Shown here one piece after another: positions 24,495 through 24,957 of a DNA stretch of 64,000 nt. The translations under genes and the position numbers were made by a program. Source of the DNA: Bradyrhizobium sp. WSM1743 (GTDB taxonomy: Bacteria > Pseudomonadota > Alphaproteobacteria > Rhizobiales > Xanthobacteraceae); contig NZ_AXAZ01000011.1 in assembly GCF_000473065.1 (NCBI RefSeq), forward strand, positions 62,001 to 126,000, written 5' to 3'. Numbering within the stretch: position 1 is the first letter of the stretch; every line of letters starts with the position of its first letter. Below the pieces are notes generated by a model. That model was not told the origin of the DNA. It saw nothing but the letters and a program-made list of their open reading frames with translations, and searched no databases.

Positions 24495-24571
24495 GTCGTT
24501 CCGGGATGGTCCGAAGGACCAGACCCGGAACCTCGAGATTCCAGGTCGCACTTCGTGCGCCCCGGAATGAC
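24495..24571. repeat. Palindromic intergenic repeat, family A
   Basis: GTCGTTCCGGGATGGTCCGA at the left and GCGCCCCGGAATGAC at the right, with GAACCTCGAGATTCCAGG in the centre. It lies just upstream of ligA and immediately left of the GIY-YIG remnant. Confidence 0.85.
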
Positions 24572-24586
24572 GGTTGGGAGGGGCTG

Positions 24587-24873
24587 GTGGCGTATTACGT
24601 CCATATTCTAGCAAGCCGGCGAGATGGGGCAATCTCGTCGGCATCACCAACGATCTCGTGCGTCGCGTCTATGAACATCGAATCAAGGCCGTGCCCGGCT
24701 TCACGACGAAGTACAACATCACGCGGCTTGTTTGGTTCGAGATTTAGGATGATCCAGTCTCGGCGATATCGCGAGAGAAAGAGCTGAAGAAATGGAAGCG
24801 GGCTTGGAAAATCCAGCTGATTGAGAAGAGCAATCCAAACTGGGACGATCTGTACGAGTCGATCTGCAATTGA
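24587..24873 (+). pseudogene. GIY-YIG nuclease-family pseudogene (frameshift and nonsense codon)
   Basis: Reading from GTG 24587 gives [16 protein letters not shown]. One base is then missing in the Tyr codon of the expected YVG (near 24635), after which another frame continues GITNDLVRRVYEHRIKAVPG, FTTKYNITRLVWFEI. A TAG stands where the family has Tyr, followed by DDPVSAISREKELKKWKRAW and IQLIEKSNPNWDDLYESI to TGA 24873. The sequence matches the ~95-residue single-domain GIY-YIG (UPF0213-like) proteins that are multicopy in many alphaproteobacteria. Two lesions show it is dead. It is flanked on both sides by near-identical family-A repeats (24495-24571 and 24878-24957). Confidence 0.87.
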
Positions 24874-24877
24874 GAAC

Positions 24878-24957
24878 GTGATTCCGGGATGGTCCGAAGG
24901 ACCAGACCCGGAATCTCGAGATTCCGGGTTCGATGCTCTGCATCGCCCCGGAATGAC
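24878..24957. repeat. Palindromic intergenic repeat, family A
   Basis: GTGATTCCGGGATGGTCCGA to GCCCCGGAATGAC. It shares the same GGATGGTCCGAAGGACCAGA left arm with the copy at 24495-24571, so the two probably arose together. Confidence 0.86.

Follow-up and report, generated by a model that had tools for sequence, protein, structure and literature searches.

The closest described systems are the REPtrons of the RAYT (TnpA-REP) enzymes and, on the side of the repeats, the CGTC-tagged REPs. According to the excerpted text of Nunvar 2010 (PMC2817692), RAYT genes are always flanked by two inverted REPs, coevolve with REPs, and are present where their cognate REPs abound, and part of the account in PMC8049555 describes the RAYT as a single-copy gene with vertical inheritance. 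The CGTC REPs appear in the portion of Di Nocera 2013 (PMC3733652) drawn on here as dimer-forming elements with a GTC head, a stem that starts with AT, and a CCA tail that are present in Bradyrhizobium; the section devoted to them also names A. lipoferum, S. meliloti, and "Neisseriae." That portion reports no associated transposase for the CGTC REPs, and the main text of the paper contains no mention of GIY-YIG. Among the titles and abstracts listed in our literature search, none links GIY-YIG domains to REPs; prior work may exist in preprints and most subscription journals, which lay outside its scope.

The GIY-YIG remnant and its repeats in the window

The window analyzed here is a whole stretch of 64 kb (G000:C142:62001-126000) from a draft genome of 8.34 Mb in 163 contigs. 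The locus of interest occupies the gap between two genes that, from their protein sequences, we take to be ligA on the left (22322..24475, minus strand, with the start taken as the methionine of MARAAK) and recN on the right (an ORF at 24967..26640, minus strand). This gap holds the frame-broken remnant of a gene for a GIY-YIG nuclease of the group termed clade A here (24587..24873, plus strand), placed between two palindromes of a repeat family termed family A. The remnant begins in one reading frame and goes on in another (NLVGITNDL...), with the break in the YIG region, and contains one in-frame stop, a TAG (WFEI*DDP); its match to PF01541 reaches 37.1 bits, above the cut-off.

Repeat comparison, fold prediction, and profile searches define the flanking elements as REP dimers, i.e., REPIN-like palindromes, at 24494..24576 and 24877..24960 (both plus strand), the right one being a direct repeat of the left. 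The segments 24486-24546 and 24869-24929 share 90% identity across 61 nucleotides, and a 17-nucleotide tail (24558-24574 and 24944-24960) is identical in both. Each unit is a full palindrome, with DNA-fold z scores against shuffled sequences of -3.85 for the left (24490-24578) and -8.15 for the right (24877-24961). These results confirm an earlier sequence-only reading of the window, which had proposed a dead GIY-YIG gene enclosed by two near-identical repeats. The same reading had singled out a variant arm, GGATGGTCCGAAGGACCAGA, as an unusual feature of the two flanking copies. Within the window this arm indeed occurs exclusively at positions 24504 and 24887, but 13 of the 30 family-A loci fetched from the source genome (one of the 30 being the right-hand copy of the cassette itself) also carry it, and hence it is a common subtype rather than private to the cassette; we accordingly rejected it as a cassette mark.

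A profile built from both cassette repeats, which themselves match it by construction, revealed weaker, gene-less family-A copies elsewhere in the window at 15065..15145 and 34690..34771 (both plus strand) and, with no strand assigned, at 37261..37343 and 41367..41447, together with a family-A-like repeat at 51430..51531. A pair of CGTC REPs with heads out at 52656..52757 was recovered by profile and REP pattern and matches family A weakly; the REP pattern further located heads-out pairs at 20633..20732 (of the GTCATGCCCCGCG.. type), at 22192..22293 near the 3' end of ligA, at 39826..39925, and at 59230..59342 (no strand assigned for any of these). The source genome as a whole has 48 exact family-A cores, and all 40 of the candidate places scored, out of 220 candidates, belong to the family. 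The CGTC-REP pattern has 148 matches in this genome versus 0 for the reversed pattern. Family A ends in ..AATCT, a tail variant of the CGTC REP, and the repeats of the source genome display the GTC head, stem-loop-stem, CCA tail, high copy number, and dimers of this class.

Beyond the remnant, the source genome has two further PF01541 matches only, namely, uvrC and a second clade-A copy on contig C105 (L001; G000:C105:12391-12627). The latter has 86 open codons with the start in another frame and lies between inverted arms that belong to a different repeat family. Judged from their reading frames, both clade-A copies found in the draft genome look broken, which may have left the repeats of this genome as a stranded population; the genome is perhaps without a working clade-A nuclease beside its family-A cores.

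The clade-A protein has about 95 residues and a single GIY-YIG domain. An intact relative, P0001, matches PF01541 at 61.6 bits (cut-off, 22.6). Residues Y6, Y17, R27, E64, and N83, presumably the catalytic Tyr, Tyr, Arg, Glu, and Asn positions, are invariant across the 12 rows of alignment A1. In the four proteins scanned, we detected no domain other than PF01541, and thus no HUH tyrosine transposase, and no match in NCBIfam. The predicted fold (pLDDT 92.8) is nearest to the UPF0213 protein BH0048, followed by Slx1, and the predicted structure of the 95-residue protein shows no additional DNA-binding domain.

REPs around clade-A genes

Searches with P0001 yielded 1 to 10 matches, among the matches listed, in each of 97 genomes of the genus (G008, G025, and G081 have one weak match each among those listed), which broadly supports the earlier statement that small GIY-YIG genes are multicopy in relatives. 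From the matches listed we fetched 60 further genus stretches; to these were added named loci, the best 80 of at least 583 encoding stretches, and a phylum sample of 30 plus 44 clade-A loci, in which a small number of the 30 come from this genus or duplicate loci fetched earlier. Flanks were scored by gap-free repeats common to both sides and compared with those of other ORFs in the same stretches. By this measure, 194 of 224 testable clade-A copies have repeats common to both flanks versus 11 of 278 size-matched control ORFs and 27 of all 924 control ORFs; the remaining 30 clade-A copies lack shared flank repeats. Set by set, clade-A copies are flanked in 56/62, 78/86, 23/32, and 37/44 cases versus 2/237, 20/476, 0/5, and 2/109 controls; one named copy with too little flank had been left out before these counts (86 of 87 kept). 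Because the genus, named, and phylum sets overlap (e.g., L245 repeats L127 and L251 repeats L001), we also counted by site clusters. The 225 clade-A copies collapse into 108 such clusters, of which 107 are testable. Flanks with shared repeats are found at 89 of the 107, in 79 cases as inverted repeats, and at 80 of the 98 when the genus clusters are set aside. The 62 genus copies examined amount to nine site clusters. Neither outcome that would have counted against the sequence-only reading was seen: other GIY-YIG copies do lie between repeats, and the junction is not one at which all relatives carry the gene without them.

Clade-A genes are bracketed at many unrelated sites, and the pattern extends to records of several phyla. 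Going by the record titles, metagenome-assembled genomes labelled Omnitrophota, Marinimicrobia, Nitrospinota, Planctomycetaceae, Buchananbacteria, and Myxococcales are among the flanked examples; some of these contigs may be misbinned. From a plasmid collection, 12 of 33 matches were fetched; nine of these copies are flanked and three are not, as against 2 of 21 control ORFs, and the flanked ones include copies from Azospirillum lipoferum, Sinorhizobium meliloti pSymB, and a Neisseria gonorrhoeae record. Three records filed as plasmids (NZ_CP119140.1, NZ_CP119142.1, and NZ_AP026896.1) are, at 2.2 to 4.9 Mb, chromosome-like in size. In A. lipoferum AZO_p3 (L395:2989-3282), a GIY-YIG gene and CGTC REPs are inserted between sufB and sufC, and in a Planktothrix agardhii plasmid (L397:2992-3276), a GIY-YIG gene lies between an MmeI-like restriction gene and the DISARM gene drmA.

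The flanks inspected consist mostly of CGTC REPs, with a GTC head, a stem, a loop, a stem, and a CCA-like tail, and the flanking repeats start with GTC or CGTC where inspected. The GTC heads mostly point outward and the CCA tails towards the gene: among the 55 site clusters where both sides have a REP, 44 are heads-out (p = 2e-17 versus an expectation of one in four). Counted by copy, with copies not independent, the REP-pair orientations are 94 +-, 17 ++, 15 -+, and 7 --; in 30 of the 108 clusters, the orientation detector found no REP. Many copies, including that of the window, have a complete dimer on each side and not split halves, and the gene often occupies the position expected for a REP-dimer spacer. 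At one and the same site, different genomes have different repeat families beside the gene. Since our first CGTC regular expression was too loose for "any" matches (24 to 31% of clade-A controls), we relied on flank-against-flank scores, on matches on both sides, and on a stem test. Five loci (L328, L334, L337, L360, and L362) have flanks with a GTCAT head and an ATCT-type tail, suggesting further REP subtypes.

Repeat abundance, the junction in relatives, and related clades

Across the genus, the median count of the exact family-A core is 26 among the 29 genomes carrying the junction gene and 6 among the 69 that lack it (one-sided p = 6e-10, or 2e-8 once the cassette's own two are subtracted). 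On the flank tree we defined 20 disjoint pairs of relatives with and without the cassette; after the same subtraction, the cassette side is richer in 16 of them (one-sided sign test, p = 0.006; Wilcoxon, p = 0.0004), and in four the gene-less relative has more family-A cores. Well-supported branches alone yield seven independent pairs, too few for significance in a sign test; at a threshold of 15 cores, about four agree, none disagrees, and three show no difference. Gene presence thus goes with repeat abundance, near relatives included, in keeping with the earlier suggestion that the nuclease might help the repeats to spread.

The same link is seen at greater distance. We counted the CGTC-REP pattern in 299 genomes of the phylum, where the reversed pattern is near zero. 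At least five matches are present in 46 of the 71 genomes with clade A (E ≤ 1e-20) versus 40 of the 228 without; by genus, the counts are 27 of 42 versus 13 of 111 (p = 3e-10). Genomes with weaker GIY-YIG matches only and those with none do not differ in CGTC-REP counts (p = 0.74). Twenty-four of the 299 genomes have at least 10 REP-pattern matches yet lack a clade-A match at E ≤ 1e-20, G063 among them narrowly missing this cut-off at 1.1e-20; G133, which is 99% complete, combines 167 REP-pattern matches with no clade-A match. Conversely, 18 clade-A genomes have fewer than three REP-pattern matches.

The junction has a match in all 98 same-genus genomes searched. A script sorted the 68 junctions that were read into 29 with the cassette, 24 with another REP dimer, five with a half hairpin, nine with nothing, and one with a large insert; the other 30 genomes were scored as being without the cassette on the basis of no cassette-length match or close copy among the matches listed (a fragment only in G016). 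One of the 29 cassette-length inserts with a GIY-YIG gene, L032, extends across an assembly gap; its scaffold N gap with a duplicated junction is probably an assembly artefact, and it was left out of the pair test but is still among the 29 in the tree and abundance counts. Intact clade-A orthologues occupy the same junction in relatives, and 20 of the 29 junction copies retain a frame of 88 to 105 aa. The intact junction genes have a median dN/dS of 0.07, with all 119 usable pairs (of 190) below 0.5, dS in these pairs being near saturation (median, 1.46). By these ratios, the intact genes are under purifying selection, and the low values together with the frames kept in relatives suggest that the window copy represents the recent loss of a selected gene.

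When the cassette is mapped on a tree built from the ends of the flanking genes, 22 changes are needed versus a mean of 22.2 for shuffled labels, and supported branches force at least eight. A single gain of the junction cassette was therefore rejected, its scatter being no less than that of shuffled labels; the scatter may reflect gain, loss, or allele exchange. In the closest pair, L006/L045, the ligA side is identical across the roughly 90 bases compared and the entire gap differs, one form having been exchanged for another, unrelated one, the result that allele exchange would give. The recN-ligA gap (24476-24966 in the window; L034-L073) switches between unrelated REP haplotypes among close relatives, and the adjacent gene ends are nearly identical where the haplotypes differ.

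A set of 16 "weak" GIY-YIG genes had been intended as a negative control; the finding that nine of them are flanked led to the recognition of a second group, clade B. At E ≤ 1.5e-33, its profile (A2) retrieves 25 copies from 19 of the 299 genomes; the match ranked next has an E value of 1.2e-22. Sixteen of the 19 fetched clade-B loci are flanked, 15 of them with a CTTCGA..CTCAGG palindrome; among the eight genes not looked at beforehand (the other 11 had been viewed earlier), seven are flanked and six have the motif. Most of the loci L346-L349, L353, L356-L358, and L364-L382 are bracketed by CTTCGACAAGCTCAGG-type palindromes. The CTTCGA..CTCAGG motif is absent from all 223 clade-A copies searched for it. 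Clade B is present in 9 of 12 motif-rich genomes versus 10 of the other 287; the motif-rich genomes G250, G116, and G319 have no clade-B match (E ≤ 1.5e-33), 10 of the 19 clade-B genomes have fewer than five motif pattern matches, and at L368 and L378 the loose CGTC pattern matched on both sides too. Clade B and the CTTCGACAAGCTCAGG-type palindromes apparently constitute a second enzyme/repeat pairing, and our literature search found no paper with this palindrome string.

Members of a third group, clade C, resemble UPF0213 and what we take to be YhbQ and have the same fold and size; shared flank repeats were found in none of the nine. As a same-fold control, clade C makes a trivial link of REPs to small genes or to GIY-YIG genes unlikely. 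The 30 loci considered for these two groups comprise 19 of clade B and nine assigned to clade C by score and eye; L385 and L389 belong to clade A and were left out. Clades A (104 rows), B (17), and C (7) each form one side of a branch, with support of 98, 84, and 91, respectively, on an alignment of few columns.

Role of the nuclease and comparison with REPtrons

Architecture, REP orientation, the abundance link, selection, and the pairing of clades with repeats are all observed for these genes, and the clade-A pattern suggests that the nuclease is the enzyme, long sought in vain, by which CGTC repeats spread. We regard it as probable, though far from certain, that clade-A GIY-YIG nucleases are the cognate factors of the CGTC-tagged REPs, with a role like that of the unrelated RAYTs for GTAG REPs. 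We infer that they would mobilize REPs in trans. A REP pair might become single-stranded or extrude as a hairpin, the Slx1-like nuclease might then cut the unpaired GTC tag or the CCA tail at the foot of this hairpin, and repair would copy the element into a new intergenic site. The clade-A gene would itself be inherited largely in place, with gene-less REP dimers as its nonautonomous clients. The 24 REP-rich genomes that lack clade A, the 18 clade-A genomes with few pattern matches, and the 30 copies without shared flank repeats weigh against this reading, and the sequences give no direct indication of movement.

Two rivals stand out, one in which the gene homes into REP dimers and one in which the cassette moves as a whole. 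The GIY-YIG fold is known from homing nucleases, and the gene might be a parasite that cuts a gene-less REP dimer and is copied in between its two arms, an idea consistent with its frequent position at the dimer spacer and with copies in unrelated contexts, such as that between sufB and sufC in A. lipoferum. Such a parasite is unlikely, given the few gene matches per genome (1 to 10 among those listed) beside many REPs, the complete dimers on each side of many copies, and the fact that gene-bearing genomes have more REPs, not fewer. We place slightly less trust in a composite transposon, wherein repeat-GIY-repeat would move as a unit and gene-less dimers would be internal-deletion derivatives comparable to MITEs. 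This is the composite mobile unit of the sequence-only reading, from which the recurrent repeat/GIY-YIG/repeat arrangement, bounded by REPs, has stood, and the scatter of the junction cassette on the flank tree is also in its favor. A composite unit that moves is supported only in part: the genus copies reduce to nine site clusters, the gene is bracketed by different REP families at one site, the whole-gap swap in L006/L045 resembles allele exchange, and a comparison of the junction in seven pairs (one unusable because of an assembly gap) showed neither a target-site duplication nor a clean empty site. RAYT-like action in trans accounts for the data equally well.

A nuclease of host maintenance, removing or repairing REP cruciforms and hairpins, with the REPs serving as its regulatory or terminator elements, would account for the purifying selection, for REP abundance that tracks gene presence, and for the predicted structural likeness to Slx1, a branched-DNA nuclease. 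It would leave unexplained both the heads-out REPs around the gene in unrelated contexts and the bracketing palindrome particular to each clade, and we consider it slightly more doubtful than either of these two rivals. Least credible by far is passive association, under which REPs gather in any intergenic gap beside any small accessory gene. Control ORFs do score at a low rate (about 3% overall and 4% when size matched), but the contrast between clade A and the unflanked YhbQ-like GIY-YIG genes, as well as the orientation bias, contradicts this view.

Returning to the cognate-factor reading, it can be extended to the proposal, which in our estimate is evenly poised, that small GIY-YIG nucleases are a second, independently evolved class of REP-propagating enzymes. 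Under it, clade A would drive CGTC REPs in Alphaproteobacteria and scattered other phyla, its sister clade would drive the CTTCGA..CTCAGG palindromes, and the YhbQ-like clade would be a nonmobile relative. If this is true, bacterial REP elements originated on two or more occasions, in association with nucleases that are not related to each other. Short repeats of the CGTC kind abound in Alphaproteobacteria, and the paper defining them left the mobilizing enzyme open; with a concrete candidate that has a defined substrate, this question becomes testable. The proposal would moreover assign a function to a widespread family of orphan nucleases and provide a natural comparison with RAYTs, in which the lifestyle is the same and the enzyme unrelated.

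The window's repeats fit the description of CGTC-tagged REPs in the portion of PMC3733652 cited above. Among proteins of related fold, the UPF0213/YhbQ type (PDB 1ZG2 and 1YWL) shares fold, size, and Pfam domain with clade A but forms a separate clade that is not repeat flanked. The GIY-YIG homing endonucleases and Slx1, which cuts branched DNA according to PDB titles, have the same catalytic fold; clade A differs in that it has no visible added DNA-binding domain and was not seen in an intron. The likeness to RAYT REPtrons, as presented in excerpts of PMC2817692 and PMC8266576, comprises a gene between two inverted REPs, an abundance of cognate REPs that tracks the gene, and enzyme clades that pair with kinds of repeat, to which part of PMC8049555 adds a gene that largely stays in place as the repeats multiply. 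All three RAYT properties, including the association of gene presence with cognate REP abundance, have counterparts in clade A, none without exceptions. RAYTs are HUH tyrosine transposases with GTAG REPs, whereas clade A combines a GIY-YIG nuclease with CGTC REPs, and we found no fold relation between the two, the nearest folds to clade A being UPF0213 and Slx1. Since the counterparts are present but the protein is a GIY-YIG nuclease and the repeats are of the CGTC kind, the clade-A system works like a REPtron but is not one.
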